NCBI GenBank assembly: GCA_944390825.1
Contig: CALXRG010000012.1
Location: 1 to 64,000 of the forward strand
Length of the DNA: 64,000 bases
Direction of reading: 5' to 3'
Source of the DNA: an uncultured Akkermansia sp.
GTDB taxonomy: Bacteria > Verrucomicrobiota > Verrucomicrobiia > Verrucomicrobiales > Akkermansiaceae
The position numbers and the translations under genes are program-made. The stretch's first letter is position 1, and every line of letters begins with the position of its first letter. Below, piece by piece: positions 39,575 to 61,697 of the stretch. The notes beneath the pieces were generated by a model. That model did not search any database. It worked only from the letters and a program-made list of their open reading frames with translations, and had not been told where the DNA came from.

Positions 39575-39596
39575 ACCTTAACTCTCCATTTCATCC

Positions 39597-40502
39597 ATGA
39601 ACATTAGTGAAAACAAGCGCATTGCCGGCATTACCGTTCTTTTCGCCATTGCCTTTGGCGGCCTGATGTATTACGGGTTTGACTGTGCCGGACAGGCCGA
39701 TGAATCCATGGCCAAGCTGGACAACATTCGCAATGACTACAGCGGTTTCGAGGAAGCGGATATCCAACCTTCCCCGGAGAACGTCAAGGCATTGAGAAAA
39801 ATATGCGACGAGGCAAAGGCCAAGCGTCAGGAGCTTGAGACCCTGATGGACGGCTACAAGAAAGTCTGCACTGGTGATGGCGTCAGCATGGCGGCCACCG
39901 ACTATCTGGTACGCATCAAGCAGGATCGCGCTGAGGTGAAGAAAAAGGCCGATGCGAAGAAATGCAACCTTGCCGGCAATGCCGCCTCCTTCGGCAAGGA
40001 GGACCGCGACTTTGAGACCGCTCCGGAATCCGTGCGCGTGGCACCGCTTTTCTTCCAGCACCGCGTTGTCAGTTCCCTCGTCAACAAACTGGTAGATGCC
40101 GGTGCGTCCGCGGTGGAGAGCATTTACTGCGCGCCCCTTCCTGAAGCGACTTACGGCGAAGGCGACGACTGGGAAACCGAGCCGATGAGCTTTGAGATTG
40201 ATTTCCGTGTGCCGCGTGGCGTGCTTGCCTCGGTGCTCAACGATATCATGTCGAGCCGCGAGTATTTCATGACCATCACTGGCATGTACGTGAACAACGA
40301 GAACTCGCTGCCTGCCATGGATGCTTTCACGGCCCCGGTGGCGCCGGCAGCGGATTCTGCCGCGGCTCCGGCCGGTGGTGCGGCTGCTGATCCGGCTGCT
40401 GCTCAGGCTCCTGTGGCGGTTCTCAAGACCGGAGCAGACTCAGAAACCGTCCGGGTACACCTCAACATTCAAGTCCTCTATTTCAACCCCAAGGCTCACT
40501 AA
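39597..40502 (+). CDS. Amuc_1100-like envelope protein (PilO-like)
   Basis: This 301-residue protein has an N-terminal membrane helix (about 9-26). A coiled coil (about 32-85) follows, containing DIQPSPENVKALRK, similar in style and place to the Amuc_1100 segment before its globular domain. The rest is an alpha/beta periplasmic domain with an Ala/Pro-rich insert (about 245-275). Amuc_1100 of A. muciniphila is the abundant envelope protein known for TLR2 signalling and metabolic effects in the host. Sequence identity looks low, so host activity should not be assumed. It is in an operon with its neighbours, 22 bp after the PilM-PilN-like gene. Confidence 0.82.
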   Translation: MNISENKRIAGITVLFAIAFGGLMYYGFDCAGQADESMAKLDNIRNDYSGFEEADIQPSPENVKALRKICDEAKAKRQELETLMDGYKKVCTGDGVSMAATDYLVRIKQDRAEVKKKADAKKCNLAGNAASFGKEDRDFETAPESVRVAPLFFQHRVVSSLVNKLVDAGASAVESIYCAPLPEATYGEGDDWETEPMSFEIDFRVPRGVLASVLNDIMSSREYFMTITGMYVNNENSLPAMDAFTAPVAPAADSAAAPAGGAAADPAAAQAPVAVLKTGADSETVRVHLNIQVLYFNPKAH

Positions 40503-40538
40503 GACCCAAGGTTCACAAACTTTAGCGCATTTGATATT

Positions 40539-41645
40539 ATGTCAGAAAACTCAATTTCACACGCGAAAACGATCGCCATCGTCTCAGGCGTCGTCTTGGG
40601 ACTGGTAGGGGTGGGCATGGGGATTCCCCACCTGATTGATGACCCGACCAAGCGTCCCTCAGCAGCGATCGGCTCGATGGAAGAGGAACAGCGCAGCGAG
40701 CTTGAAGCACCACTTCAGGCTGCCACCAGGAGCATGGGCCTGAAGGCCGCACTCGGCGATCATGTGCCGCGTGGCTCCAAGGAAGACCGCGTGGCTCCCT
40801 TGTTCTTCGCTCCTCAGCTCTGGCAGGTAACGCTCTCAGACCGCAACGCCATCATCGATATCTACGACCCGAACGCCCCGAACATCCATGCAGAAGTGCC
40901 CAACAGCTGGTTTATTGCCAATGGGCTTTTGGCTGACATGGGCAAGAAAGATGCCTTGGCCGTGGACAGCGATGGGGATGGCTTCTCCAACTTTGAGGAA
41001 TACCAGGGCAATACCAAACCGAATGACCCCAATTCCTATCCTCCGCTTGTCACGACGGAACGTGCCAAGCTTGAGGCTATTGCCATCATCACGAAGCGTG
41101 CCCGCATCGAGGTGGAGGGTATGTTCGGTATCCAGGAGCAAACACCGGACTCTGTCAACATCACTGTAACTCAGCTGACCAAAAAAGGTGAGCTCACGGC
41201 CAACAAAACGAAGAAGGCCTACAAAGTGGGTGATGATATTGACGTGCTCGACGACGCCAAGCGCTTCAAGGTGGAGTCGTTCGCCAAAAAGGAGTTTGGC
41301 ACGTCCTACGGCGGTAAGAGCAACGAAAACGTCGTTGTGCTGAAGGATAATGCACTTCCCGATGTGCCGGCGATTACCGTGCGTGCGGGCACACCCCGTG
41401 CTCATGAGACCCATCCCGGTGTCCGTCGCGCCTATGACATGGAAGACACGAAGGTGAAGTTCCGCGTCACGGCCGGGAAAACGGCCAAGAACGAGTTCAC
41501 CGTCCGCGTAGGCGAAGGCTTTACCCTGCCGAATGCGGATGGAAGCAACACCGAGTGCAAGCTCGAGGACGTCAATGAGCGCCAAAACTCTGTCAACATC
41601 AGCGTGAAGGGGATGGAAAGCCCCATCGCAGTCCCCAAAGTTTGA
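40539..41645 (+). CDS. Amuc_1099-like membrane-anchored protein
   Basis: This 368-residue protein has one N-terminal membrane helix (about 9-26). A region follows with an EF-hand/thrombospondin-3-like calcium loop (DSDGDGFSNFEEY, about residues 144-156), then two beta-rich domains. It fills the PilP-like place between the Amuc_1100-like protein and the secretin, and could couple the inner membrane complex to the secretin. Function is inferred from order only. No Shine-Dalgarno sequence is seen in the 36 bp upstream. Confidence 0.78.
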   Translation: MSENSISHAKTIAIVSGVVLGLVGVGMGIPHLIDDPTKRPSAAIGSMEEEQRSELEAPLQAATRSMGLKAALGDHVPRGSKEDRVAPLFFAPQLWQVTLSDRNAIIDIYDPNAPNIHAEVPNSWFIANGLLADMGKKDALAVDSDGDGFSNFEEYQGNTKPNDPNSYPPLVTTERAKLEAIAIITKRARIEVEGMFGIQEQTPDSVNITVTQLTKKGELTANKTKKAYKVGDDIDVLDDAKRFKVESFAKKEFGTSYGGKSNENVVVLKDNALPDVPAITVRAGTPRAHETHPGVRRAYDMEDTKVKFRVTAGKTAKNEFTVRVGEGFTLPNADGSNTECKLEDVNERQNSVNISVKGMESPIAVPKV

Positions 41646-41716
41646 CCTTTCGGGCAATGTTACCCCACAAAATCGAACAAAAAACATGCGAAATCCCATT
41701 TTTTAAAACTGTAGAC

Positions 41717-41745
41717 TTTACAACCCGATAGATTTCTGTCATAAA
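41717..41745 (+). promoter_or_regulatory. Possible internal promoter of the secretin gene
   Basis: TTTACA (41717-41722), 17 bases, CATAAA (41740-41745). The ATG is 12 bases beyond, so the leader would be very short. Confidence 0.45.
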
Positions 41746-41757
41746 TAAGACATTACC

Positions 41758-44508
41758 ATGAACCACGCACCTCTGAATATCACGAAGCGGACTCTCTCCA
41801 TCATGGCCATCGCTGCAACCTGCCAGTTTGCACAGGCCAACACCGATGGATATCTGAGTACCTCCTCCGCAGCCGGCACCAGCGCTGTAGGTCCCACAGC
41901 CGTCATTGGCGACTCCTCACAGACCAGTATCGACGCCCGGGAAAAAGCACGCCGTAAAGCAAAGATGGATGCAGCTCTTCAGCTTCTGCAGGAAGGGCGC
42001 TCCGCATACGAAGCCAAGAAGTATACACGAGCCCTGGAGAAGTTCCAGAATGCCTGGGCGGAGATTCCCAAGGCTCCCGCGACAGTCAAGTGGCAGGAGC
42101 ACATCATCGACTGCATTGGGGATGCCTCGATCGCCGTGTCGATGGAGTACGCTAAGATCGGCCGCTATGACGAAGCTGAGCAGCTCCTGCTCGATGTACT
42201 CAGCCGGGATCCCAAGAATCGCCTGGCGGCACGCCGCCTCGAGGAACTCCGTGACCCGATCCGCAACAACCCTGCGCTGACACCCGAGCACGTCAAGAAT
42301 GTAGAGGAAGTGCAACGCCTTCTGACATTGGGCTGGGGGTACTACAACCTCGGTGACCTTGACGCCGCATACGATTCTTTCAATCAGGTGCTGGAAATTG
42401 ACAAGTACAACAGCGCTGCCCGCCGTGGACAGGAAGCAGTCAGCAAGCGCCGCATGGTCTACTACGAAAGCGCCCGCGATGCATTCCGCGCCCGCGCCCT
42501 TGCCGAGGTTGATGCCTCGTGGCAGGAAGCTTTACCGAAGGAAATTGCCGATATCGAATTCGGTGGAGCTGTGACGGAGACCCTTTCTCCCAACCAGCTG
42601 CGCAACGAAGAGATGCTCTCCTCGATGCGCGTATCAGAGGTGGTGCTCCAGGAGGCTCCGATGGCTGAAGCCCTCGACATCCTCCGCGCCGAGGCCAAGA
42701 AGAACAACATGACGCTCAACTTCATCTTTGAGCGCCCCAAAGCAGCCCCTGCGCCCGCACCTGCTCCTGCAGCCGACGAAGACGAAGTTGACGAAGACGA
42801 GGGTGATGAAGACAGCGAGGGCGGAAGCGAAGAGAGCGTCGCCCCGGCTCCCTTGGCTCAGGCCCCTGCCGAGGCCATGATTACCGAGCTGAAGGTAAGC
42901 GACGTCAGCGGTAAAGACCTGCTGGATCTGATGTGCGCCGATGCCGGCTGTCAGTATCGCGTCGAAGACAACGCCATCGTGGTCTACCAGACGGGCTCGA
43001 GCGAGAAGATGTTCCGCCGTCAGTGGAAAGTTGCGCCAAGCTTCTTCAAATCCCGCTCCGATGGAGAAGAAGAGGAGTTGTTTGACGAAGACACCGGCAT
43101 GTCCGCGGCTGCTCCCAAGAAGCTTGAGCCCAAGAGCGTACTGCTCAGCGCCGGCGTCACCTTCCCCCGCGGGGCTGAAGCCCGCTACTCCGAGGCCACG
43201 GGAATGCTGACTGTCACCAATACTCCGGAAAACCTCGATGCTGTGGAAGACGCCATTGCCGAGTTCCGCCGCAACATGCCGCAGATGGTCAAAGTGAGCA
43301 CCAAGTTCATTGAGGTCTCGCAGACCAACGAAGAGGAACTTAGTTTTGACTGGGTTGTCAACCCGTTCTCCATCAACAACTCAGGGAACACCTACGTCGG
43401 CGGTGTCAACGGAACCTCGTCCAACCCGCTTCGCAAGCCGGGCGACTTCGTCACCTCCGGTGGCAACGCCTATGCCAACAACTACAGCGGCAACGGCTCG
43501 TGGCCGATCTCGTCCAACACGACCAACGCCACAGATGCCATCACCAACGGCTTGGTCACTGGCGGCCTGCGCTCCGGCTCATCTGCCCTCTCGGCCAGCC
43601 AGCTCGACACCCTGCTGTCCAACGGCAGCATCGGCTCGAGTGCAGCAACCTCGCCGGCTCCAGGCATCCTCTCCCTCACGGGTATCTTCGACAGCGGCTC
43701 CTACCAGATGATCATGCGTGGTCTCTCCCAGAAGAAAGGCGTCGACGTCATGTCCGCCCCGAGTCTGGTCTCCCGTCCCGGTGGAGTGGAGTGGTCCCCC
43801 GAGCCTGACCCGCTGGCCAGCGACCAGGGTGGCGACAACAACTGCGCCAAGATTGAAATGATCCGCCGCTTCGTCTACCCCTCCGCTTACGATGCACCCC
43901 AGATTCAGAGTAACTCCGGCAACAACAACAACGACAACAACACAGCCGGCCTTCCGATTGCCGCCCCTGCCAACCCCAGCGAGTGGTCAGTGGAAGAAGT
44001 CGGTATCATGATGCGCTTCAAGGTTGCCGAGTTCGATACCGATGCCGATATCATCAAGTTCGAGCAGTTCGAGATTCGCGTAGTGGACTTCGAGGGCTTC
44101 ATCAACTACGGCTCTCCCATCACTGCCGGTATTGCCAACAATACCTCCATCGAGCACATCACCCTCACCGATAACCGCATCGACATGCCGGTGTTCAGCC
44201 GCCGCTACGTCAACAGCAACCCCTGCATCTATGATGGTTACACCATCGCCGTCGGTGGCATGATCGAGGACAACGTGCAGAAAGTGGAAGACCGTGTGCC
44301 TGTGTTTGGCGATCTGCCGCTCATTGGTCAGTTCTTCCGCAGCAACGCCGAATCCCACATCCGCCGCAACCTGGTGGTATTCGTCACCGCCGAGAAGATT
44401 GACCCGACTGGCAAGCCCACGCGCCTCCGCGAAAAGGGCACGGGTGATAATCCTACGGCCTCCAATGCTCCCAGCCTGTTCCCGGATGACGGCTTGGCCA
44501 ATCCGTAA
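41758..44508 (+). CDS. Secretin with N-terminal TPRs (PilQ/GspD-like, Amuc_1098-like)
   Basis: This 916-residue outer membrane protein has a signal peptide (about 1-27). TPR-like helices (about 60-240) follow, then an STN/N-domain region split by an acidic low-complexity insert (about 335-365, DEDEVDEDEGDED). The C-terminal secretin pore ends with VPVFGDLPLIGQFFRS and RRNLVVFVTAEKI. Secretins form multimeric outer membrane gates for pili or type II secretion. It is the last gene of the Amuc_1102-1098-like block and is followed by a strong terminator. No pilin, prepilin peptidase or motor ATPase is in the window. Confidence 0.92.
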   Translation: MNHAPLNITKRTLSIMAIAATCQFAQANTDGYLSTSSAAGTSAVGPTAVIGDSSQTSIDAREKARRKAKMDAALQLLQEGRSAYEAKKYTRALEKFQNAWAEIPKAPATVKWQEHIIDCIGDASIAVSMEYAKIGRYDEAEQLLLDVLSRDPKNRLAARRLEELRDPIRNNPALTPEHVKNVEEVQRLLTLGWGYYNLGDLDAAYDSFNQVLEIDKYNSAARRGQEAVSKRRMVYYESARDAFRARALAEVDASWQEALPKEIADIEFGGAVTETLSPNQLRNEEMLSSMRVSEVVLQEAPMAEALDILRAEAKKNNMTLNFIFERPKAAPAPAPAPAADEDEVDEDEGDEDSEGGSEESVAPAPLAQAPAEAMITELKVSDVSGKDLLDLMCADAGCQYRVEDNAIVVYQTGSSEKMFRRQWKVAPSFFKSRSDGEEEELFDEDTGMSAAAPKKLEPKSVLLSAGVTFPRGAEARYSEATGMLTVTNTPENLDAVEDAIAEFRRNMPQMVKVSTKFIEVSQTNEEELSFDWVVNPFSINNSGNTYVGGVNGTSSNPLRKPGDFVTSGGNAYANNYSGNGSWPISSNTTNATDAITNGLVTGGLRSGSSALSASQLDTLLSNGSIGSSAATSPAPGILSLTGIFDSGSYQMIMRGLSQKKGVDVMSAPSLVSRPGGVEWSPEPDPLASDQGGDNNCAKIEMIRRFVYPSAYDAPQIQSNSGNNNNDNNTAGLPIAAPANPSEWSVEEVGIMMRFKVAEFDTDADIIKFEQFEIRVVDFEGFINYGSPITAGIANNTSIEHITLTDNRIDMPVFSRRYVNSNPCIYDGYTIAVGGMIEDNVQKVEDRVPVFGDLPLIGQFFRSNAESHIRRNLVVFVTAEKIDPTGKPTRLREKGTGDNPTASNAPSLFPDDGLANP

Positions 44509-48771: not shown

Positions 48772-49836
48772 TCATCCCCTCCGGTACCAGTCGCCTGATT
48801 CCCCCGGAGGAGGCGGCCCCCCGTGCCAGAACCGGTGAGCATCCTCGGCGCGGATCCCACGCATATTCACGTAGCGGGTGCGCAGCAAGTGGGGGTTGCT
48901 GTGCCCCATGAACAACTGGAGCGCATTCAGATCACGGTAACTTTTCGCGAAATAGCTCGCAAACGTGTGCCTCAGCGCATCCTGCTGCCACTGGCCGAAA
49001 CCCGCCTCCCGCCGCAGTTCGCGCCACTTATTCAACCAATTTGCCGGGCAGATGCTGCGGTCCGGGCCCAGCGTGGAGCGTGAGCGCAAAATTGCGTGCA
49101 GCGCCGGGCAAATCGGGATATGACGCCCACCCCCGGTTTTACTGTGCTCAGGGGGGACGATGACCTCCCCCTCATCCAAATCCACATCCCGCCAGTGCAG
49201 CCGCTCCGTCTCCCGCGGCCGTACTCCCGCATACAGCATCAGCCCCACCGCCGCCAGGCAGGATCCATCGTGGTACCGAGCCGCAACATCCAAAAGCCGC
49301 GCGATCTCCCCCAGCTCCAGCGCCCGGATTTCCCGCTCTCGGATCCGGGGTATCTCGATGTGCTTCACCGGGTTTTCCCGGCACCAGTCCCGCCGGATCC
49401 CTTCATTGAACAGGACACTCAGCACCGCCCTCGCCTTCGTACGCCGCGTAGGCTGTGGAAAAACCTGCTCCAGCCTGCGCGCGCACTCCTCTCGCGTAAT
49501 CGTACTCAGCAGCCTCCTGTCCCATCCCTGCGCACCCTTCCCCAGCCGCCGCAGACATTGGCGGATATCCTGCCGCGTGCGTGCCGAGCGGCCCGACTTG
49601 ATCACCAACAGCCGCTCAACAGCCTCCGCATACGTCACGCTCCCCTGCCTGCTCGTCCATGCCGTCACACCCAGCCTCAGGCAATCCCGCAGGACATGGG
49701 CCGGTTTCTGGTCCTGAACTTCCTCGGGCAGCATATCGAGAGCATCCAGCACGAGCCTCACACACTGAGAGAGGGAAATCCCTCTATCCTGCAGCAGGAA
49801 CTGTGCCGCTTGTTTCTCCTGTAATTTCGTGCGCAT
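48772..49836 (-). CDS. Tyrosine recombinase (phage-integrase family), candidate DNA invertase
   Basis: This 354-residue protein has an N-terminal SAM-like DNA-binding domain (about 65-150) and the catalytic domain. Visible active-site residues are Arg206 (AGVRPRE), Lys233 (HSKTGGG), Arg289 (LRHTFASY), His312 (MGHSN) and nucleophile Tyr322 (TRYVNM). The first catalytic His is Asp286 here. The start codon lies inside the left inverted repeat (49832-49852), and a perfect copy in inverse orientation lies at 50253-50273. That placement suggests it inverts the segment between itself and the autotransporter gene and thereby changes its own upstream sequence. Confidence 0.9.
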   Translation of the reverse strand: MRTKLQEKQAAQFLLQDRGISLSQCVRLVLDALDMLPEEVQDQKPAHVLRDCLRLGVTAWTSRQGSVTYAEAVERLLVIKSGRSARTRQDIRQCLRRLGKGAQGWDRRLLSTITREECARRLEQVFPQPTRRTKARAVLSVLFNEGIRRDWCRENPVKHIEIPRIREREIRALELGEIARLLDVAARYHDGSCLAAVGLMLYAGVRPRETERLHWRDVDLDEGEVIVPPEHSKTGGGRHIPICPALHAILRSRSTLGPDRSICPANWLNKWRELRREAGFGQWQQDALRHTFASYFAKSYRDLNALQLFMGHSNPHLLRTRYVNMRGIRAEDAHRFWHGGPPPPGESGDWYRRG

Positions 49837-49852
49837 GTTATAAGCGTAGTCA
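49832..49852 (+). repeat. Left 21-bp inverted repeat (candidate recombination site)
   Basis: Contains ATGTTATAAGCGTAGTCA, preceded by CGC. It is a perfect inverse copy of 50253-50273. The recombinase start codon (49836-49834, minus) is inside it. Confidence 0.95.
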
Positions 49853-49898
49853 ATAGCTTTTTTTATAAAAAATGGTTTTTCTTATCCCTGGAGCTTCC

Positions 49899-50075
49899 AT
49901 GGAGAGAGAAACTGTGTACTATCCTGATTATCAAACTTCTGTATATACAGTAAAGTATATGGCAAAGCTGATGGAGGATAACCGGCAGGGTCTAGCAACT
50001 ACTTTACCTGAACCAGTGCAGACGTCGAGCTTTTCTCGCCGGAGCAAAACCGTTCTGCGTGTAATCCTTAGATAA
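49899..50075 (+). CDS. Small reading frame inside the invertible segment (58 residues, doubtful)
   Basis: ATG at 49899 is preceded by GGAG five bases upstream, one of the few Shine-Dalgarno matches in the window. The product (starting MERETVYYPDYQTSVYTVKY, ending basic) has no recognised domain. A hairpin (ATCCTTA/TAAGGAT, 50064-50082) surrounds the stop codon, as a weak terminator might. It could be a small regulator of recombination or chance. Confidence 0.25.
   Translation: MERETVYYPDYQTSVYTVKYMAKLMEDNRQGLATTLPEPVQTSSFSRRSKTVLRVILR
49927..49954 (-). promoter_or_regulatory. Possible promoter facing the recombinase gene, with a palindrome in its spacer
   Basis: On the minus strand, TTTACT (49954-49949), 16 bases, GATAAT (49932-49927). 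The palindrome CTGTATATACAG (49939-49950) overlaps the spacer and -35 end, a classic operator position. Confidence 0.35.
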
Positions 50076-50135
50076 TAAGGATGTTATAAAATTGCTGTTT
50101 TCGTGTGTCAGTTTGTTTGAAAAAAGAGCGGATTC

Positions 50136-50165
50136 TTGGTGTCAAAGAAGCACAATTCATATATT
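50136..50165 (+). promoter_or_regulatory. Possible promoter facing the autotransporter gene
   Basis: TTGGTG (50136-50141), 18 bases, TATATT (50160-50165). In the opposite orientation it would face the recombinase gene. Confidence 0.4.
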
Positions 50166-50252
50166 CATGGTGGGATATAAGACTCAATCTATTTAGAAAC
50201 AGTATATTAGAATGTAAACAACGGGATCTCAGGTGTCATTTAGCAGTATAAC

Positions 50253-50273
50253 TGACTACGCTTATAACATGCG
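50253..50273 (-). repeat. Right 21-bp inverted repeat (candidate recombination site)
   Basis: A perfect inverse copy of 49832-49852, 61 bp before the autotransporter ATG. On the plus strand it creates ATG CGG TAA, a two-codon frame in the leader. Confidence 0.95.
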
Positions 50274-50285
50274 GTAAGCTAATCT

Positions 50286-50311
50286 AAGCCGGACGCAGGT
50301 AGTGCCGGCTT
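50286..50311 (+). promoter_or_regulatory. Hairpin in the autotransporter mRNA leader
   Basis: AAGCCGG (50286-50292) pairs with CCGGCTT (50305-50311), 22 bases before the ATG and outside the invertible segment, so it is present in either orientation. Confidence 0.45.
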
Positions 50312-50333: not shown

Positions 50334-53300
50334 ATGAAATTACACCTTCCCGTGAAATTGCGTGCGAGCGTGCTCGCAGCCATCGTGGCGGTACCCGCCC
50401 TCCTTTACAACCAGGCCTTTGCAGCGCAAACGGCAAGCAGCGTGGCCGACCTGACACCTGTCTCGGATGGCGTCTATACCTCCGGTCAGGACCTGACCAT
50501 TAGTGGTGTTGTTAATGCCTCCGGCTTAGACTTGTCGGAAATCCAAGTGACCGCTGGCGGCTCGGAAGCTGGCGACCTCACGATTCAGAGCACCGGTGCT
50601 CTCATGAATGTCGCTACCGTCACCGTCGCGAACGACATGACCGTCGCCGGTAGCGTCAGCGATGTATCAGCTATCACCGTGGCCGGAACCGCTACCCTTC
50701 AGAATACAGCTCAGCTGGACAACGTCAGCCTGACCGCCGCGACAATCTCGGGAGCTGACGCCGTGACCTCGCTGACGGATTCCACCCTGACGCAAACCCT
50801 TGGAAATTGGTCACTTTCCTCGGTGAAAGCGGGAAATACCTACATCAATATGGGCGGAGAAATCACAGTGACGGGTGCTATTACTGGGGCCGGTGCGACC
50901 TTGCAAACAGACAGCAATAACATCAATCTGAACGGAGCAATCAACGCTGGAGTTACGATTGATTCCGGAAATTGGATCCAGGTGTCGGGAACTACCATCG
51001 CGGCAGGGCAGATATGGAGCGCCGCTTCTGATATCCGCTTCAATGCCGCGAATAACCCTAGCATTACAGTCTCGAATTCCCAGTTGAGCGCGGGTGGAGC
51101 GCTGTATGGCGGGGCCAAATTGACGTTACAGAACTGCTCAGGCCTTGAAGGAACGGAGACCGTTTCCGTCGGATCCGTAAATCTCCATTCTCTCATCCTA
51201 GATAATACCGATTTGACATCGACCGGAAGTGTCTTGGTGTTCGGTGATAATAACGGACCGGCAAAGTTGAGTGTCAAAAATGGCTCAGTCGCCGACTTTG
51301 CTTCGATTGCCAGAAGTAACTCTTCAGGCCGTACGGTAGATGTACTGGTTGATGGGGCAGGGAGCGTCCTCTCAATCAGGCAGAGCTCCACGATTGCTGG
51401 TACCGTAACGGTTCAGGATGGGGCGACTCTCCAGGCAGCCGGTGGGCTGACGCTAGACGGCGCGATTAAGGATGACGGCAAGATCATCGGTTCCACTCTG
51501 ACAACAACCGGCGATTCCATCACCTCCGACGGCTTAGGGGCGGATGAGAGCGGTAATACACTCACGGCAGCTACGGGGATTACAGTAAGAGGAGCCATAG
51601 AAGGCACGGGCAACACACTCACGACCACCGGCACGGATGCCGGCATCGAACTCCAGGGGAATGTGGACGCTGCCGTCACAGTCTCAGCAGCGGGCGAACT
51701 CACCCTGACGAACGGCGTCTCCTCCGTCGCCTCCGGGCAGAACTGGACGGCTGACAGCCTGGCAATCCAGGCCGTAAACGCTGTCACGCTGGGCAATTCG
51801 ACCGTCTCAATCACGGAGGCCGTAACGTCGCAGAATGACCTGACCATCAGCGGTGGCACTAGTCTTACCGCAGAGGGCGTCGACGTGGGAGACAACACGC
51901 TCACCTTGAGTGGTTCCAGCACAACCGTTGCGACAAGCGACAACAGTAAGGTGGAACTCACGGCAGACACCGTAGCGCTCGAGAATGGTATGGCGCTGGC
52001 GAACGCCGTGGTCAACGCCTCCACGTTCACCCAAGAGGAGGGTACAAGTTACAGTGGCGTGACGTTTGCCATGAGCGGAGCGCAAGACTTCGGGGATGTG
52101 ACGACGGACGATAATACGTACTCGAGTGATGGTACCCTGTCATTCGGAACCATCTCTGGAGACGACAACAGCGCAACCAGCTCTGTGGCCAACGCCGACG
52201 CCATTGTGGTGGGAGGAGAGATCAGCGGTAACAATACGCAGCTCACCGCCACGGGTGACGGTGGGGCCATCTCGGTCAACTCCATTGGGGGTACAGGCAC
52301 CACCATCAGCACCACCTCCGGCGATATCACCGTCAACGGGGCCATTACAGGAGCAGACACCTCCATCAGCACCACAGGCGGCAAGATCACCGTCAACGGC
52401 GCCATCACCGCAGCCTCCACAATCGAGACCACAAATGGCGGCGACGTGGAGTTGCATGCCGACGTGACGGCTTCCGCCATCACCTCATCGGGTGATCTGA
52501 ATATCATCAGGGACGGAGGTGTGACAATCTCTGACTCTGATTTGGGTGTTACAGGGGCCATCACCGGCAACGCCCTGACGCTCACCGGCTCCAAAACTCC
52601 TGACCGGGAGCACACCGCCGGCAGCGTGGATAACGACGCCCTGACCGTCAGCACGGATACCTCTCTGAATGTCGCAAATACTGTTAACACCGGCGCTCTC
52701 GCCGTGGCTGGCACTCTGGAGGCGGGTGGCGATGTCACAGGTGCTGGGGGTTCCGATATTTCCGGTGCTCTTTCGTCGACCGCCGGCAACATCAGCCTGA
52801 CAGAGGCGACGGTTTCCGGTGATGTTTCAACGATTGCCGGCGACATCAGCCTGACAGAGGCGACGGTTTCCGGTGATGTTTCAACGATTGCCGGCGACAT
52901 CAGCCTGACAGGCGGAACCGTGACCGGGGGCACCCTCAGTGCGGGCCGCGGCACCGATGGAGGCGACCTGATTCTGGATAACGAGTCCGTTTCCGGGGCA
53001 GATCTGACCATCGCGAACGATCTGCAGATGACCAATAGCTCCAGCATCACCGATGTTACAGATGTGACCGCTGGGAACAGCATCTCGGTAGACAACTCGA
53101 CGATTTCCGGCGTCACCGCAGATGGCGTAGTGGCTCAGGCTGGCAGCATCAGCGTGACGAACGGCGGCATCATCGGCTCCACTGCGGAGGCAGATTCAAT
53201 AGTCGGCGATGTCAGTGCTGCAACCACCATCACCGTCGACAGTGGCAGCATCGCGAACGTGACGGGTAGCGTCGAGGCCCAAGGTGGCAAGCTCAGTGTT

Positions 53301-56300
53301 CAGGACGGCGGTACCATCGCCACCGTAGGCGGCAGTGTCACCTCCGCCGCTGCGATTGAAGTGACAGGTGCGGGCAGCTCCATCGCCACCGTGGGCGGCG
53401 ACGTGACCGCGCAGACCGACATCAGCGTGACCAACGGCAGCATCACCGGCATCACCCGTGATGTGACCGCGACAACCGGCGCCATCACCGTTGACAACGG
53501 CAGCATCGCGAACGTGACGGGCAGTGTCGCGGCCAAAGGTGACGCGCTCAGTGTTCAGAACGGCGGCACCATCGCCACGGTGGGCGGCAGTGTCACCTCC
53601 GCCGCTGCGATTGAAGTGACAGGCACGGACAGCTCCATCACGAACGTGACGGGCGATGTCGCAGCTCAGGGTGAGCTCAGTGTCCGGAACGGTGGCTCCG
53701 TAGCTACGGTGGGCGGCAGTGTCACCTCCCAGGATGCCATTGAAGTGACGGGTGCCGACAGCTCCATCACGAACGTGACGGGCGATGTCGTGACGGGTAC
53801 TGACAAGGATATGACCATCACCGGAGGCGGTTCTGTTTCCGCCGTGGCCGGAACGGTGAGCGTTGGCAAGGATCTGATCATCGGTCAGGATACGGCCGCC
53901 AAGGATGGCAGCTCCCTGAGTGACGTTGGAACGCTGGCGGTTGCCGGTGATATGACGGTGACCGGTGGCGATGTATCCTCCGTTGCGGGTGGCACCGTCG
54001 GTGGTACGCTGACCTTGCAGGACAGCTCGACCATGAAGAGCACCCAGCTGACCGTCACAGGTGATATCACCGTGGATGCTACATCCGACATTGGTGGTAC
54101 GGAGGCTGATGCCGTTGAGCTCACTTCCACCGAAGGTAATATCGCAGTGGATCACATCGGTTCCGATGCTGCTGGGTCGGATGGCAACGTTCTGACCTCT
54201 GAGAAGGGGTACGTGGCAATCACGCAGGGTATCACAGGCAGTAAGAATGTATTGACTGCGGCCCAGAACATCACGACGGGGGCAGTCATCGCTGGAAATG
54301 AGAACCAGCTCTCAGCTGGAGGTGATATTGAATTGGGTGCCACCGATGGAACATCCATCGAGGGTAATAACAATGTCGTGATTGCACAGGGTAATGTGAC
54401 CCTTCAGGGCAGCATGGGCGAGAACAACACCGTCAAGGCTTACACCGGCGGCATCAATGTCCAGACGGATATCTCCGGCACGGGCGGCGTGTACAAGGCG
54501 GGCGGCCAGGTAGTGGTTCAAGGTTCTGTGACCGGTTCGAACCACACGCTGCTTTCCTATGGCAAGGGTGTGGGCCTGGATGACGTTGCAGTGAGCATTG
54601 GCGGGTTCAGTGCTCAGGGATCCACGGTTGGGATTGCTACCGAGAATGACGAAGATCCGGGCTATGGAACTCCCATCAATCAGGGTTCGGTCAGCATTGG
54701 CGCGATGACGGGGCCTGCTGACGTCGATGCGACCCTCATGAACTCCATCTATGCCGCCGGCAATGTGGAGATTGGCTCCTTGACGGGCTTCTCCGCCTAC
54801 ACCACCATCGAGGCCGGTAAAACGATCGGGGTGGGTGCAGAAAGCTCGGCCAGCAACCAAACCTGGCAGGCCTCAGATCTCTCTATTGGGACAGGAGGCC
54901 TGACGCTGACCAACTCGACACTCAACATCGCGAACAGCATCAGCGGAAGCAGCCTCACGCTGACAGCCGACTCAGGCACCCCGGCGGCGGATTCCATGAC
55001 CCGCTATTCCAGTGTTGTGTCCAGCGTGAATCTGACCAATCTGAGCCTCAGTGGCACCTTCGTGAAGGCGGATGCAGATGCTGGTACCGTAGGGCAGGAT
55101 GACAGCGTCTCGCTGACGGTGACGGGCAATCTCACCGTGACCGGTGAGCTCACGATCACGAACAATGCCTTGCTGAAGGTGGATGGCACGGCAACCATTG
55201 GCTCGCTGACGCTGGATGGCGAGTGGGCCACGTTGCTTGGCTCGGATGTGACGGTCGATTCGCTGACGCTGCTGAACGGCGCAACCTATGACAGCACGAA
55301 GCTGTCTGCCTCAGAGCTCACCCTGAGCGGTCCCGGCACGATGAACCTGACCGATCTGGAGCTCAAGGGCGTCATGAGCCTGACGGCGGAGAACAGCCTC
55401 ATCCTGACCGTGACGGGTGATCGCGGGCTCGTCAATCTGTCTGGCGACGTAACCGCGCAGAATAATTCGCAGATCCAGGTCACGGATGATCTGGAGACGA
55501 GTGCCTCCATCGCATCCAACGGTGGAGCGGATGGTGCTTCGCTGATTTCTGCGTCCAGCATCAGCGCAGGTGAAACGATTACGGCTGAGGGCGGCAACAT
55601 CACTTCGACGATCGGCGGCATCACCGCAGGCACGGGTGTGAGCGCCACGGGCGGTACTATCAGTTCGGCGGATGCTATTACCGCGACGACGGGTGATGTG
55701 ACGGCCAGCGAGGGTGGCAGCATCACGGCTGCGGGTGACATCTCCGCGAGCGATGGCTCCGTGAGCGCCAACGGCGGCACCATTACCACGCAGGGAGCTA
55801 TTTCCGCGACCGCCGGCACGGTGACAGGGTCGGGCGCGGTGAGTGCAACCGAGGGTGGCAGCATCAGCAGCGGAAGCATCATGGCCGACGCGGGTGTGAG
55901 TGCCACGGGTGGTAGTACCATCAGCTCGGCGGGCGCCATCACCGCGACCACGGGTGATGTGGCGACCGGTGAGGGCGGCAGCATCACCGCAGAGGGTGCC
56001 ATCTCCGCGATCGCCGGCTCGGTGAGCGCTACGGGCGGCAGCATCGCTGCGACCACGGGTGATGTGACAGCGGCGGGCGCAGTGAGTGCCACGCAGGGCG
56101 GCAGCATCAGCGGCGGCAGCATCACGGCCGGTGGCTCGTTGACGGCTAACGGCGGCAGCATCAGCTCGACCACCGGCGGCATCACCGCGGGCACGGGTGT
56201 GAGCGCCACGAACGGCACGATCAGCTCGGCGGGCGCCATTACCACAGACACGGGTGATGTGACAGCCAGCACAGACGGAACCATCACGGCTGAGGGTGCG

Positions 56301-59300
56301 ATCTCCGCGATCGCCGGCTCGGTGACGGCCAACGGTGGCAGCATCAGCGGCGGCAGCGTCACCTCCAGCGGCTCGATGAGCGTTTCCGACGGCGGCACGA
56401 TTGCTGCCACGTCTGGCAGCGTGACGGCTCAGAACGGAATCTCCGGCACGGACGGCTCGATTGCTGCTGCGTCCGATATAGCGGTGACCGGTTCGGTGAC
56501 CAACACCGGCACAGACACCGGCTTGGAGCTGACGGCCGGCGGTGCCATCACCGTCTCCGCGGGCGTCTCGGGCGGTCAGGTGGCGATGCAGGCAGATTCC
56601 ATCAGCATCACCGGTGACCTCGGCGACAACAGCAATGATCTGGACTCTCAGACGGATATCAGCATTACGGGCTCCATCGCGGGCGACAGCAATACGTTGG
56701 ATGCTGTGGCCGGCGATATCACAGCCGCAGCCGTTGCCGGTACGGGCAACACGCTGACGGCTGGCGGTGCCATTGACGTCGCCGGAGCTGTGGCTGCCGG
56801 CAACACGCTGACGGCGGACGGCAATATCGATGCGGGCTCTCTGGCCGGCTCTGATATGCTGACCTCCGCCCAGGGAGACATTACGGTGGATGGCACTGTG
56901 AATGGCGGCAGCAATACGCTGTCCGCAGTCACCGGCGATATCACGGTCGGCTCTGTAGCTGCGACGACGGAGGATGCGAAGAACGTCCTGACGGCTCAGC
57001 AGGGTACGGTCACCATCAAGTCCTTGGTGGACGGCGGTGATTACACGGAGGTGCTGGCGAAGAATATCGTCATCGGCGAAGCCAATGGCACTGCTCTGAC
57101 GGCAGAGCATCAGACCTGGGACGGTGTGAACCTGTCGATCGCCGGAGCGGGTCTGGAGCTGGTGGATTCCCACCTGAGCCTGACGGGTACCATCTCCGGT
57201 ACCAGCCTCACGCTGACGAACTCGGGTACGGCGACGCTCTCTTACAGCGCACAAAATATCGCCTTGGATAGTCTGACGCTCAATAGAAACAATTCGCTGA
57301 CACTGACAGGTGATGCACATGTGACCGACCTGACGATCAACGACAAGGCCAGCATGACGGTGGATGGATATGCGACGATTGAGACGTTGACTCTGAACGG
57401 AGACAGCGCGATCTTCCAGGCGACGGGTTCTACCATCACCAGCCTGATCCTGCAGAATGGTGCCCACTACGACGGCGTGATCGCGACGGTTACGGGGGTC
57501 ACCTTTGAAAACGGCGGCACCGTGACGGTGGAGGCTTTGGACGGTATTACCAACCTGAAAGTCGGTGGCAACACCTTCGTGTACGTGACCGGCAACCAGG
57601 GCCTGACTCAGCTGGAGGAAGATCTCCATGTGACGGGTGAATCCCTGCTGGCGGTCTCCGGCAGCCTGGCAACGGATAAAAACATCCTGGCCTCCGGTAG
57701 CTCTTCGATCTCCGGCGCGGACATCACGGCCGACGGCTCGTTGACGGCCAACGACGGCAGCATCAGCTCGACCACCGGCGGCATCACAGCAGGCACGGGC
57801 GTGAGCGCCACGAACGGCACCATCAGCTCGGCGGCGGCCATTACCACAGACACGGGCAATGTGACAGCCAGCACGGGCGGCAGCATCACGGCTGCGGGTG
57901 CGATCTCCGCAACAGCCGGCTCGGTGACAGCTAACGGCGGCAGCATCAGCTCGACCACCGGCGGCATCACCGCCGGCACGGGTGTGAGCGCCACGAACGG
58001 CACCATCAGCTCGGAGGCTGCGATTACCGCGACGACGGGCGATGTGACGGCCAGCGCGGGCGGCACGATCACAGCCGCAGGTGCTATCACGGCTACGACC
58101 GGATCGGTGGCAACCACAGGCGGCACCATTGAGGCTGCGGGTATTGCGGCCGGCGCGGATGTGGCTGCCGAGGGCGGCAGTATTTCCTCGACCTCGGGTG
58201 ATGTGACAGCGGCGGGTGCGGTGAGTGCGACGGATGGTGGCAGCATCTCTGTCACCGGCGGTGGTATCACCACCGGGACGCCGGCTCTTGACGCTGATCC
58301 GGCCATTGACGGCAGCATCACCGCCGAGGGTGGCAGCATCACGGCCACGGGCGCCATCACTGCGACGACGGGTGATGTGACGGCTGATGCCGGCAGCATT
58401 GCGGCGGGTGACGCCCTTGAAATTGCGGAGGGCGATCTGACTCTCTCCAACAAGGGCAGCGTCTCTGCTCAGAACGGTATCACCTTGGAGAAGGGCAGTG
58501 TAACGGCTACTGACGGCAGCATCAACGGTGATCTTACTCTCAATGGTGAGGGGGTGAGCGTCAGCCTGACGGGTACGACGGTGGACGGCAGTGTGAGCTT
58601 CACCGACGCCAATGCGGGTGTCCAGATGGATAACTCGCTGGTGACCGGTGACATCACCGGTGCCAATTCCCTGCTGATTACTAACAGCTCGGAGGTTCTC
58701 GGCGATGTGGCACTGACGGGTGATGGCGTGCTCACGATCAGTCAGTCTGTCATCCACGGCACGGTGAGTGGTGTCAATGAGGTAGGTATCGTTGATACCG
58801 TTGTGACCGAGAGTGTCACGAGCGGCAAGGATCTGACCATCATCGGTGGTGAGGTGCAGGGCATGATTACCATCACTGACCCGGCCGCTCCGGATCAGAC
58901 ACCCGGCAGCGTGACGCTGGTGAACACCACCGTCGGCACAAGCAACGGACTGGACCTCTCAGATCCCGATCATCCCGTAGTGACACCCAGCACAGGCCTC
59001 TCTGTGGATGGCGCTTACAGCCTTGATGCCAGCGGCACCACGCTCAAGGGTGGTGTGGCGCTGGAAGGCGGTGAGGCAACGCTGTCGGCAACGAGTGTCG
59101 GTGCTGATAAGGATGGCAACAGCCTCACCGGTGCTTCCTCGCTGGAGGCTACGAAGGGTACCTCGCTTGCCGGTGATGTGACACTGGTGCAGGATGCGGC
59201 AGGCAATGCCACCGCCTCGCTGGATGCCTCTGCGGTGCAGGGCAGCATCACGGGTGCAACGGCGCTGGAGGCTGCTAAGGGCTCCACCGTTGGCGGTGAT

Positions 59301-61697
59301 GTGACGCTGGTGCAGGATGCCGATGGCAATGCCACCGCCTCGCTGGATGCCTCTGCGGTGCAGGGCAGCATCACGGGTGCAACGGCGCTGGAGGCTGCTA
59401 AGGGCTCCACCGTTGGCGGTGATGTGACGCTGGTGCAGGATGCCGATGGCAATGCCACCGCCTCGCTGGATGCCTCTGCGGTGCAGGGCTCGATTACCGG
59501 CGCTACCGAGGCTGCTATCACCGGAGGATCGGTGACGGGCGCCATCGTGGATGCCGGTACGGTAACCGTGGCTGACTCCACTACGGGCGACATCTCCGCG
59601 ACTGGGGACGTTGAGCTGACCAAGGCCAGCACAGGTGCCGTGACGACGGTTGGCGGTGATGTCACTGTCACTGGTGCGGTGCTTGCCGACAGCGTGAGCG
59701 GCCTTGGCCTGACGGTGAATAAGTATGGCAGCCTCACCGCTGAAACGGGTGATGTGAGCGCGGATGGCGTGATCACGATCGCTGGCGAGCTGACCGCTCA
59801 GAAGGGTAGCATCGTGCTTGACGGTGATGCCACCTCTGCTATTACCGCCGATGTGGCGGCAGAGCAGAACGTGACGCTCAAGGGCGGGATCGCAGCTTCC
59901 GGCACGGAGGCGAAGCCCATCGAGATAGCGGCCAGCGCGGGTGATGTCACCCTGGACGGCTCGCTGGATACGGCGTACGTGGCGATCAGCGGTGACGACA
60001 TCGCGGTAAACGGCACGCTGAATGCCGGTGCGGGCACCGTGCTTGCCGGTACGGTCTCCGGTGCGGGCACTATCAATAAGACGGGCGGCGACGAACTCGT
60101 GCTGGCGGCTGACACCAACATGGCCGGCGGTACGGTGAACGTGAGCGATGGCTCGACCCTCAAGGCCGAAGGCGGCCACCTGGGCGCCATCACTGTGGCT
60201 GAGGGCTCTACCCTGGTCGTGGGCGGAGATTCCAGCGTGGCCACAGAGCTGCTGACCGACAGTCTCACCATGGATGCCGGCAGTAAGCTCCAGGCTACGC
60301 TCAACCTGGCAGACGCCAAGGCAGACAAGGTGACATCGGCTGGCAATGTGGATCTGAAGGGGGCTACCCTGGTGCTGGACAGCACCGTGGCCGCCGAGGA
60401 GGCTGCTATTGCGGATGGCACGCGTCACACCGTTGTCGGCTGCACGGTGCTCAGCGGACTCAATGAAGACGTCGAGCACTCCATGGAGACGCTCAATGCT
60501 CATGTGGAGAACTTCGGCGACCACGTCGACGTGGTCCTCAGCAAGAACTACAAGGGTGCGGCCAAGACCCCGAATCAGAAGCAGGTGGCAGCAGCGCTGC
60601 AAACCATCAACCCCTCTGAAGTCGAGGGCAGCACGATGGGCGACGTACTGGATGCCCTGGCTCACACTCGCTCGGAGTCGGACGCCAAGGCGGCCCTGGA
60701 TACCCTGGGAGGCGCCGGACTGGCGGCTATCCAGAAGGTGATCGCTGAGGAATCCCGCGAGCACATGCAGACCCTGCGCCAGACACTTACCGGCCTGAAT
60801 CAGGGCATTGCCCGCCGCATTGCGGAGGATGGCAGTGTGCTGCCCGGTATTAATTCCAGCGCTGTAGCTGCCTCGATCACGGGAGGAACCTCCAATGTGA
60901 GCGGTGATGGCAACGTGCGTGATTACTCGCGCAGCAGCATGGGCTTCATCCTGACCGGTGTCCACGCCGTGAATCGCAACTGGAGCTTCGGCGGCGGATT
61001 TGCCTGGAGTTCCAGCACTGCTTCCTGTGGTAGTGTGGATACTGACTCCGATGCCTTCTACTTCGATGCGGCGGTGATGTACAACAAGGGCCGCCTGCAT
61101 CAGACCGGCACCGTTGGCGTTGGTTTCTACGGCTTCGATACGGATCGCAACCTTGCCGTCATCGCCGCCGGGCATGACTATGCCGGACGCGCCAATGGAA
61201 GCACCTCTGCGACCGCTGTCAACCTCTCCTACGAGGTGTCTTATGACCTGATCATCAGCAGGGACGGGCACCACACCTTCTCTCCGGTAGGTGTTGCGGA
61301 AGCGACATTTGCCCAGGTGAAGGACCTGAAGGAGAGTGGCGTCGGCAATGCCGGGCTCAATTCCAGGTTCGATGATGTGCAGAGTCTGACCGTGGGCGGC
61401 GGTGCCCGCTACACCTACAGCTTCGAGCATGGTGGGGAGCGCGGCTTCGTCAGTGCCGAGGCTCTGGTGCTGGGCTCGGCCGGAGACGACACGATGATGG
61501 TGCGCAACAACTTCATCGCGGGAGGAACAGCCTTCGAGATGGCTGGGCCGAAGGCTGGTGGCGTTGGGCTGCGCCTCAACGTGAATGCTCTCGTGCCGAT
61601 CGATGATCAGTGGGCGATTATCGGAAATGTGGCGTCCGAGTTCCGCTCTGATCAGTCCGCGGTGAGCGGATCGCTCGGTGTGAAGTACTCGTTCTGA
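50334..61697 (+). CDS. Giant autotransporter adhesin-type protein (3787 residues)
   Basis: This 3787-residue protein has a signal peptide (about 1-31, ending NQAFA). The passenger of about 3470 residues is a Gly/Ser/Thr/Ala/Asp-rich beta-helix type built from short repeated strands. A linker (about 3390-3520) leads to a C-terminal autotransporter beta-barrel (about 3530-3787) ending in LGVKYSF. The barrel inserts in the outer membrane and the passenger should be exposed. Cys is almost absent from the passenger. It contains near-identical DNA repeats at several scales. Expression may be switched by the invertible segment upstream. Ligand unknown; adhesion to mucus or neighbouring cells is only a guess from type. 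Confidence 0.93.
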   Translation: MKLHLPVKLRASVLAAIVAVPALLYNQAFAAQTASSVADLTPVSDGVYTSGQDLTISGVVNASGLDLSEIQVTAGGSEAGDLTIQSTGALMNVATVTVANDMTVAGSVSDVSAITVAGTATLQNTAQLDNVSLTAATISGADAVTSLTDSTLTQTLGNWSLSSVKAGNTYINMGGEITVTGAITGAGATLQTDSNNINLNGAINAGVTIDSGNWIQVSGTTIAAGQIWSAASDIRFNAANNPSITVSNSQLSAGGALYGGAKLTLQNCSGLEGTETVSVGSVNLHSLILDNTDLTSTGSVLVFGDNNGPAKLSVKNGSVADFASIARSNSSGRTVDVLVDGAGSVLSIRQSSTIAGTVTVQDGATLQAAGGLTLDGAIKDDGKIIGSTLTTTGDSITSDGLGADESGNTLTAATGITVRGAIEGTGNTLTTTGTDAGIELQGNVDAAVTVSAAGELTLTNGVSSVASGQNWTADSLAIQAVNAVTLGNSTVSITEAVTSQNDLTISGGTSLTAEGVDVGDNTLTLSGSSTTVATSDNSKVELTADTVALENGMALANAVVNASTFTQEEGTSYSGVTFAMSGAQDFGDVTTDDNTYSSDGTLSFGTISGDDNSATSSVANADAIVVGGEISGNNTQLTATGDGGAISVNSIGGTGTTISTTSGDITVNGAITGADTSISTTGGKITVNGAITAASTIETTNGGDVELHADVTASAITSSGDLNIIRDGGVTISDSDLGVTGAITGNALTLTGSKTPDREHTAGSVDNDALTVSTDTSLNVANTVNTGALAVAGTLEAGGDVTGAGGSDISGALSSTAGNISLTEATVSGDVSTIAGDISLTEATVSGDVSTIAGDISLTGGTVTGGTLSAGRGTDGGDLILDNESVSGADLTIANDLQMTNSSSITDVTDVTAGNSISVDNSTISGVTADGVVAQAGSISVTNGGIIGSTAEADSIVGDVSAATTITVDSGSIANVTGSVEAQGGKLSVQDGGTIATVGGSVTSAAAIEVTGAGSSIATVGGDVTAQTDISVTNGSITGITRDVTATTGAITVDNGSIANVTGSVAAKGDALSVQNGGTIATVGGSVTSAAAIEVTGTDSSITNVTGDVAAQGELSVRNGGSVATVGGSVTSQDAIEVTGADSSITNVTGDVVTGTDKDMTITGGGSVSAVAGTVSVGKDLIIGQDTAAKDGSSLSDVGTLAVAGDMTVTGGDVSSVAGGTVGGTLTLQDSSTMKSTQLTVTGDITVDATSDIGGTEADAVELTSTEGNIAVDHIGSDAAGSDGNVLTSEKGYVAITQGITGSKNVLTAAQNITTGAVIAGNENQLSAGGDIELGATDGTSIEGNNNVVIAQGNVTLQGSMGENNTVKAYTGGINVQTDISGTGGVYKAGGQVVVQGSVTGSNHTLLSYGKGVGLDDVAVSIGGFSAQGSTVGIATENDEDPGYGTPINQGSVSIGAMTGPADVDATLMNSIYAAGNVEIGSLTGFSAYTTIEAGKTIGVGAESSASNQTWQASDLSIGTGGLTLTNSTLNIANSISGSSLTLTADSGTPAADSMTRYSSVVSSVNLTNLSLSGTFVKADADAGTVGQDDSVSLTVTGNLTVTGELTITNNALLKVDGTATIGSLTLDGEWATLLGSDVTVDSLTLLNGATYDSTKLSASELTLSGPGTMNLTDLELKGVMSLTAENSLILTVTGDRGLVNLSGDVTAQNNSQIQVTDDLETSASIASNGGADGASLISASSISAGETITAEGGNITSTIGGITAGTGVSATGGTISSADAITATTGDVTASEGGSITAAGDISASDGSVSANGGTITTQGAISATAGTVTGSGAVSATEGGSISSGSIMADAGVSATGGSTISSAGAITATTGDVATGEGGSITAEGAISAIAGSVSATGGSIAATTGDVTAAGAVSATQGGSISGGSITAGGSLTANGGSISSTTGGITAGTGVSATNGTISSAGAITTDTGDVTASTDGTITAEGAISAIAGSVTANGGSISGGSVTSSGSMSVSDGGTIAATSGSVTAQNGISGTDGSIAAASDIAVTGSVTNTGTDTGLELTAGGAITVSAGVSGGQVAMQADSISITGDLGDNSNDLDSQTDISITGSIAGDSNTLDAVAGDITAAAVAGTGNTLTAGGAIDVAGAVAAGNTLTADGNIDAGSLAGSDMLTSAQGDITVDGTVNGGSNTLSAVTGDITVGSVAATTEDAKNVLTAQQGTVTIKSLVDGGDYTEVLAKNIVIGEANGTALTAEHQTWDGVNLSIAGAGLELVDSHLSLTGTISGTSLTLTNSGTATLSYSAQNIALDSLTLNRNNSLTLTGDAHVTDLTINDKASMTVDGYATIETLTLNGDSAIFQATGSTITSLILQNGAHYDGVIATVTGVTFENGGTVTVEALDGITNLKVGGNTFVYVTGNQGLTQLEEDLHVTGESLLAVSGSLATDKNILASGSSSISGADITADGSLTANDGSISSTTGGITAGTGVSATNGTISSAAAITTDTGNVTASTGGSITAAGAISATAGSVTANGGSISSTTGGITAGTGVSATNGTISSEAAITATTGDVTASAGGTITAAGAITATTGSVATTGGTIEAAGIAAGADVAAEGGSISSTSGDVTAAGAVSATDGGSISVTGGGITTGTPALDADPAIDGSITAEGGSITATGAITATTGDVTADAGSIAAGDALEIAEGDLTLSNKGSVSAQNGITLEKGSVTATDGSINGDLTLNGEGVSVSLTGTTVDGSVSFTDANAGVQMDNSLVTGDITGANSLLITNSSEVLGDVALTGDGVLTISQSVIHGTVSGVNEVGIVDTVVTESVTSGKDLTIIGGEVQGMITITDPAAPDQTPGSVTLVNTTVGTSNGLDLSDPDHPVVTPSTGLSVDGAYSLDASGTTLKGGVALEGGEATLSATSVGADKDGNSLTGASSLEATKGTSLAGDVTLVQDAAGNATASLDASAVQGSITGATALEAAKGSTVGGDVTLVQDADGNATASLDASAVQGSITGATALEAAKGSTVGGDVTLVQDADGNATASLDASAVQGSITGATEAAITGGSVTGAIVDAGTVTVADSTTGDISATGDVELTKASTGAVTTVGGDVTVTGAVLADSVSGLGLTVNKYGSLTAETGDVSADGVITIAGELTAQKGSIVLDGDATSAITADVAAEQNVTLKGGIAASGTEAKPIEIAASAGDVTLDGSLDTAYVAISGDDIAVNGTLNAGAGTVLAGTVSGAGTINKTGGDELVLAADTNMAGGTVNVSDGSTLKAEGGHLGAITVAEGSTLVVGGDSSVATELLTDSLTMDAGSKLQATLNLADAKADKVTSAGNVDLKGATLVLDSTVAAEEAAIADGTRHTVVGCTVLSGLNEDVEHSMETLNAHVENFGDHVDVVLSKNYKGAAKTPNQKQVAAALQTINPSEVEGSTMGDVLDALAHTRSESDAKAALDTLGGAGLAAIQKVIAEESREHMQTLRQTLTGLNQGIARRIAEDGSVLPGINSSAVAASITGGTSNVSGDGNVRDYSRSSMGFILTGVHAVNRNWSFGGGFAWSSSTASCGSVDTDSDAFYFDAAVMYNKGRLHQTGTVGVGFYGFDTDRNLAVIAAGHDYAGRANGSTSATAVNLSYEVSYDLIISRDGHHTFSPVGVAEATFAQVKDLKESGVGNAGLNSRFDDVQSLTVGGGARYTYSFEHGGERGFVSAEALVLGSAGDDTMMVRNNFIAGGTAFEMAGPKAGGVGLRLNVNALVPIDDQWAIIGNVASEFRSDQSAVSGSLGVKYSF
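52791..52898 (+). repeat. 54-bp tandem repeat in the autotransporter passenger
   Basis: Two identical copies (52791-52844 and 52845-52898) plus the first 12 bases of a third. It encodes an 18-residue unit containing ISLTEATVSGDVSTIAGD. Confidence 0.95.
55560..58420 (+). repeat. Dispersed near-identical blocks in the autotransporter passenger
   Basis: A block encoding SSTTGGITAGTGVSATNGTI recurs with few base changes at about 56160-56225, 57762-57825 and 57948-58012, and in more diverged form near 55610. Surrounding GGSI- and TTGDV-type units repeat throughout. Confidence 0.85.
59154..59522 (+). repeat. 123-bp tandem repeat (three copies) in the autotransporter passenger
   Basis: Units start at 59154, 59277 and 59400. 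Units 2 and 3 are identical to about 59489; unit 1 is diverged in its first half. Each encodes 41 residues containing GGDVTLVQDADGNATASLDA. Confidence 0.93.

Follow-up and report, generated by a model that had tools for sequence, protein, structure and literature searches.

Genes and repeats at the locus

The window, i.e. the whole stretch of 64,000 nucleotides of Akkermansia DNA analysed here, contains a tyrosine recombinase gene and a divergently oriented autotransporter gene, separated by a short segment bounded by inverted repeats. The features are listed below; L042 denotes the closest paralog of the recombinase, which is encoded in the same genome.

48772-49836, minus strand: tyrosine recombinase of 354 aa, the putative invertase of the adjoining segment (PF00589, E = 1.8e-16)
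49832-49852, plus strand: inverted repeat arm on the recombinase side, which holds the recombinase ATG (49834-49836); L042 is arranged alike
49848-49853, minus strand: putative -35 box TTGACT, which in this assembly lies at the recombinase end of the segment, 5 bp of it shared with the arm
49853-50252: segment predicted to flip (400 bp, 37.5% GC), with inversion seen at the level of the family
49858-49872, minus strand: A/T tract that immediately precedes the -35 box, a possible UP element; L042 has a similar one in this position
50252-50257, plus strand: position at which the -35 box would dock on the autotransporter side, CTGACT as assembled and predicted to be TTGACT when inverted
50253-50273, minus strand: inverted repeat arm on the autotransporter side, the inverse of the other arm
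50275-50280, plus strand: putative fixed -10 box TAAGCT, outside the segment and 17 bp from the docked -35 box
50286-50311, plus strand: hairpin predicted for the 5' end of the leader of the autotransporter (-14.7 kcal/mol, z = -2.1)
50334-61697, plus strand: autotransporter of 3787 aa with a signal-peptide-like N-terminus, MKLHLP... (PF03797, E = 8.5e-22)
about 60870-61628, plus strand: C-terminal barrel of the autotransporter (PF03797)

The anatomy described in an earlier, sequence-only reading of this DNA is borne out. The two arms are identical in inverse at 21/21 positions with 400 bp between them, whereas none of 300 first-order Markov shuffles of the 2 kb around them gave a perfect inverted repeat longer than 14 bp; with 3 mismatches allowed, the arm 21-mer has two sites only in the 2.3-Mb genome. 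The segment is AT-rich, as had been claimed (37.5% GC vs 59.1% in the window), and the confirmed open reading frames and their domains (PF00589 and PF03797) place it between a tyrosine recombinase and a divergent protein of 3787 residues. The arm sequence, CGCATGTTATAAGCGTAGTCA, has a 6-3-6 layout with the core CGCATG-TTA-TAAGCG.

With its C-terminal PF03797 beta-domain and an N-terminus, MKLHLPVKLRASVLAAIVAVPALL, that looks like a signal peptide, the large protein is a type Va autotransporter. The assignment of the barrel uses the PF03797 match; an AlphaFold model of it, built without an alignment, has a pLDDT of 31. The recombinase contains the Phage_integrase domain (PF00589) of tyrosine site-specific recombinases. 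Its ATG (49836-49834) lies within the left arm and is the earliest possible start codon of the open frame.

Related modules and their inversion

Homologs of the window recombinase are present in all but 5 of 59 relatives and, at a strict cut-off, in 64 of the 76 genomes of the genus. A single genome encodes up to 23 of them, and the window's genome has eight full copies. Recombinase searches of wider genome contigs retrieved only distant integrases, mostly actinobacterial, and searches of viral contigs for the inverted repeat pattern retrieved none. We compiled a family set of 98 distinct recombinase genes with upstream DNA. The catalytic R, K, R, H-III and Y are invariant in 98/98 of the encoded proteins; the usual position of the H-II catalytic histidine is occupied by aspartate (D), likewise in 98/98. 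For 57 of the 98 genes, one arm of an inverted repeat pair scoring >=13 lies at the start of the gene, against 0.4 expected from shuffles. The window locus is one member of this genus-wide family of modules, composed of a recombinase, its own pair of inverted repeats and a divergent cargo gene.

The arms vary between modules (e.g. CGGATTCGAAATCCG, CGTATTCATAAGCCG, CATTGTAAATG and CGCATGTTATAAGCG), but are built alike, with 3 bp flanked on either side by a half-site of about 6 bp. Arm sequences and recombinases have diversified together: the distance between arms correlates with that between recombinases (Mantel r = 0.78, and 0.58 among distant pairs), whereas control DNA beside the arms gives r = 0.03-0.08 among distant pairs. 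This tracking of recombinase sequence by arm sequence speaks for each site having a private recombinase. Many of the cargo genes are divergent and code for surface proteins starting with MKLHLP, including autotransporters and PEP-CTERM proteins. L042 (65% identity) copies the arrangement of the window, with inverted repeats 353 bp apart, an ATG in the repeat and a divergent autotransporter. Two further relatives of the window recombinase (62-64% identity), L049 (G000 C16:7-297) and L050 (G000 C22:179-289), are cut at contig ends, so that modules of this subfamily in the window's genome probably number four. One module, L032, faces a gene whose N-terminus resembles that of the type I restriction-modification protein HsdM, which indicates that the cargo is not restricted to surface proteins.

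The sequence-only reading had singled out as unusual the start codon of the recombinase lying inside its own recombination site. The placement is real, yet not unique to the window. Among 66 modules, the first in-frame ATG lies at a median of 8 nt from the arm end and falls within the arm in 10; in 54 of the 66, the window's among them, the recombinase starts inside the arm or at most 20 nt away. In L042 the ATG is also within the repeat, with a stop codon just upstream. A flip would swap all sequence upstream of the recombinase start. The position of the start codon in the repeat implies no more than this exchange, and not by itself the opposite states of recombinase and surface protein that the sequence-only reading proposed. 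When we looked for a recombinase promoter in both orientations, we found no systematic signal, and promoter scores toward the recombinase did not differ between orientations (p = 0.26).

Inversion could be followed by comparing homologous loci. In two species the loci L236 and L244 have cargo flanks that are 97% and recombinase flanks that are 93% identical, and the segments between them are 97% identical when one is reversed but 51% identical when both are read forward. Likewise, the segment of L083 is reversed relative to those of L104, L106 and L087. Altogether, 13 of 108 homologous segment pairs are in opposite orientation, which means that the family does invert. The proposed check for reversed segments in relatives was thus positive for homologous loci and uninformative for the window segment, which has no homolog: a comparison of its DNA with 76 congeneric genomes returned the segment itself and one 46-bp match at chance level, and nothing else. 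Since the segment lacks a homolog in the other genomes searched, we infer the inversion of the window locus from the behaviour of its family, and the adjoining recombinase is the probable agent. The window locus is represented by one assembly of the species and by a single orientation. One orientation only is what would be expected of a decayed or locked module, in which the repeats persist and the segment inverts no longer, but this explanation is very improbable: the arms agree without a mismatch over 21 bp, the recombinase has every catalytic residue of the family, and its reading frame, which starts in the repeat, is intact.

Distribution of putative -35 and -10 boxes around the recombination sites

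When both arms are read outward, 44 modules have TTGAC at one, and only one, of the two inner edges. We mirrored the position of this -35 element to both sides of the segment and tested TAnnnT at all spacings from 8 to 33. On the cargo side, 39 of the 44 modules have TAnnnT outside the segment at 17 bp; on the recombinase side none of the 44 does, and other spacings yield at most 6. After removal of related recombinases the ratio is 17/21 on the cargo side vs 0/21 on the recombinase side (Fisher, 5e-8). A held-out set of 24 modules, which had not been used in forming the idea of a split promoter, gave 19/24 vs 0/24, with at most 1 at any other spacing. The base counts of the site (n = 44: T 41, A 41, x, A 22, A/C, T 39) are those of a -10 box. 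Furthermore, TTGAC-17-TATnnT has 44 matches in the window's genome, where the reversed pattern has 3 and the version spaced by 12 bp has 9, so that it counts as a normal promoter form of this genome. Docked forms with CGGATT-N3-AATCCG as the spacer number 30 in the genus vs 0 for the reversed pattern.

Another possible explanation is that the outer TA..T belongs to an asymmetric recombinase site and that the switch acts otherwise, e.g. by exchange of a terminator or leader. Core sites are quasi-palindromic (TACG...CGTA), and the outer TA could therefore mirror the inner TA. However, the recombinase-side arm of the same pair is without TA..T in 44/44 and 24/24 modules, neither the final T (39/44) nor the A-rich middle has a mirror image on the inner side, and the spacing is the same as in general promoters of the genome. 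In addition, a terminator-like hairpin was sought in the window segment and none was found. We consider this explanation improbable.

The window follows the pattern of the other modules, with TTGACT on the recombinase side and CTGACT-17-TAAGCT on the cargo side. Upon inversion the docked promoter would go from 7.7 bits (CTGACT) to 10.5 bits (TTGACT-17-TAAGCT), the best score in that direction; inversion of L042 would raise its docked promoter from at most 6.9 to 10.1 bits. In the window the inversion alters just the first base of the -35 box, plus the upstream tract, because the repeat itself includes TGACT. The -10 box TAAGCT matches the consensus at 3/6 positions (T, A and the final T). The contrast between ON and OFF states of the window switch may be modest. 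An alternative in which the arm itself carries the -10 box (TATAAC in the arm) was dropped, since L042 is without TATAAC. The state present in the assembly is predicted from these motifs to be OFF or low for the autotransporter, as it is in 64 of 68 modules. RNA of the autotransporter would be predicted to begin near 50286-50288, at the leader hairpin; in L042 the corresponding position, near the predicted 5' end, is occupied by a different hairpin.

We consider it likely that the window holds a phase-variation module in which a split promoter is completed through inversion by the adjoining recombinase. The recombinase would bind both repeats, each with 6-bp half-sites around 3 bp, and invert the 400-bp segment between them. 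The segment would carry TTGACT, preceded by the A/T tract, at one inner edge, while TAAGCT would stay fixed outside, ahead of the autotransporter. Only the inverted form would bring TTGACT to 17 bp from TAAGCT and make the recombination site the spacer between the two, forming a stronger promoter and turning the autotransporter ON. In the assembled form the -35 box would be parked against the recombinase gene and followed by no -10 box, leaving the autotransporter OFF or weakly expressed. Transcription presumably follows this predicted promoter. For the genus as a whole, it is fairly likely that Akkermansia has a class of switches in which the -35 box moves, the -10 box stays and the site is the exact 17-bp spacer, the recombinase starts at a site that co-diversifies with it, and each surface gene has a private, orthogonal switch.

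The sequence-only reading had proposed promoter inversion beside a surface gene in its established form. An invertible segment with an adjoining recombinase, in a family that inverts, agrees with that proposal, but a whole promoter seems to be missing from the segment. Such a classical arrangement, in which the segment holds a complete promoter and the autotransporter and the recombinase are in opposite states, is known from fimS and ipuS. It would fit with the AT-richness of the segment, with some promoter-like matches that point at the recombinase as the segment is now oriented (e.g. ATGACA-17-TACATT) and with an internal TATAAT promoter-like sequence in one subclade. Consensus scans of 29 dereplicated segments, however, did not detect more complete promoters than scans of shuffles, whichever direction was read (mean z = 0.02 and 0.16), and those in the window segment did not exceed shuffles (z = -0.0 and -0.6 by direction), so that a complete internal promoter of the fimS/ipuS type was not found in the window. 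Classical inversion also leaves unexplained the fixed -10 box outside the segment at exactly 17 bp, and we regard it as unlikely. The subclade in question comprises L083, L087, L104 and L106, whose segments have a conserved internal CTGNNA-18-TATAAT facing away from the TTGAC end. Depending on the state of the switch, this sequence may act as a promoter for the recombinase or for the cargo, and the 'OFF' state of the subclade may not be silent. Another promoter-like sequence, the 29-mer TTGACGCAGCGCGGCGTTTTCTGTATACT, is found at G000 C1:40-68, C7:5-33, C7:108841-108869 and C38:5-33. Its location near several contig ends suggests a repeated element that probably breaks the assembly.

Relationship to known switches

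Promoters assembled by recombination are known from IS-circle junctions, where a -35 box and a -10 box that are otherwise apart become joined, the junction arising in transposition. The split promoter proposed for the window is similar in that recombination joins separate -35 and -10 boxes, but differs in that the inversion would be site-specific and reversible, with the recombination site as the spacer. In Bacteroides, tyrosine or serine recombinases (Tsr/Mpi) flip promoter segments of surface loci; unlike in the window model, these promoters are whole inside the segment. An Akkermansia promoter motif was reportedly named by Jiang et al. 2019. A search of literature other than that study yielded no description of a promoter split by a recombination site.

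In uropathogenic E. coli, the tyrosine recombinase IpuA and the invertible element ipuS control the autotransporter UpaE (PMC6083910). As in the window, the recombinase adjoins the element that controls an autotransporter, and one repeat is inside the recombinase gene. However, in ipuS this repeat lies in the 3' end of ipuA, such that inversion truncates the protein, the start site determined by 5' RACE and the predicted promoter are inside the element, the inverted repeats are of 7 bp, and several recombinases act on the element (PMC6083910).

Invertons of Akkermansia near autotransporter and PEP-CTERM genes and a capsule locus are described in the available text of two reports (PMC11892184, PMC13343947), including the A. 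muciniphila inverted repeat motif CGGATT..AATCCG, named 'group 138' (PMC11892184), and a cps1 inverton (PMC13343947); the same text does not mention a promoter interrupted by the recombination site. These invertons resemble the window in genus, in their short segments bounded by inverted repeats beside surface genes and in the 6-3-6 core. The window arm is without the group-138 core CGGATT-N3-AATCCG and has CGCATG-TTA-TAAGCG in its place: the layout is equal, the half-sites differ. The window segment is also longer (400 bp vs about 110-290 bp in the available text on the published invertons), and in the window the recombinase adjoins the segment and has its ATG in the repeat. Split-promoter inversion would be a variant on a known kind of promoter inversion, in a genus whose invertons near surface genes were already known. 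According to the available text of PMC11892184, the known Akkermansia motif failed a promoter-orientation cut-off. A split promoter could explain this failure, because only half of the promoter would be in the segment.

Inverton sites with CGGATT..AATCCG do occur in the genus. In genome G059 (2,664,102 bp), orphan invertons have, like the window, TTGAC at one inner edge; this end is clear, and the -10 box is weaker. The 3-bp centre of the CGGATT-NNN-AATCCG pairs in G059 is the same within each listed pair and different between pairs, as would suit an address specific to each pair, and a later search for pairs in G059 required matching centres. A published A. muciniphila inverton near two autotransporters was not at its published coordinates in G059. 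A pair with nearly the same arm spacing lies 1966 bp from these coordinates, beside two autotransporters, and is probably the published inverton.

Invertons are numerous in Akkermansia, a major gut symbiont, and a split promoter would allow ON and OFF states to be read from sequence or metagenomic reads. Each module would pair a recombinase with its site, and such private pairs could serve as orthogonal switches. In related switch modules, PEP-CTERM-like tails occur on some of the cargo proteins. Elsewhere in the window, an exosortase of the XrtA/EpsH type with an EpsI-like C-terminus is encoded at 26022-27857 (minus strand), and pilus genes of the Amuc_1101, 1099 and 1098 family occupy 37718-44505, about 4 kb from the recombinase on the side away from the autotransporter.
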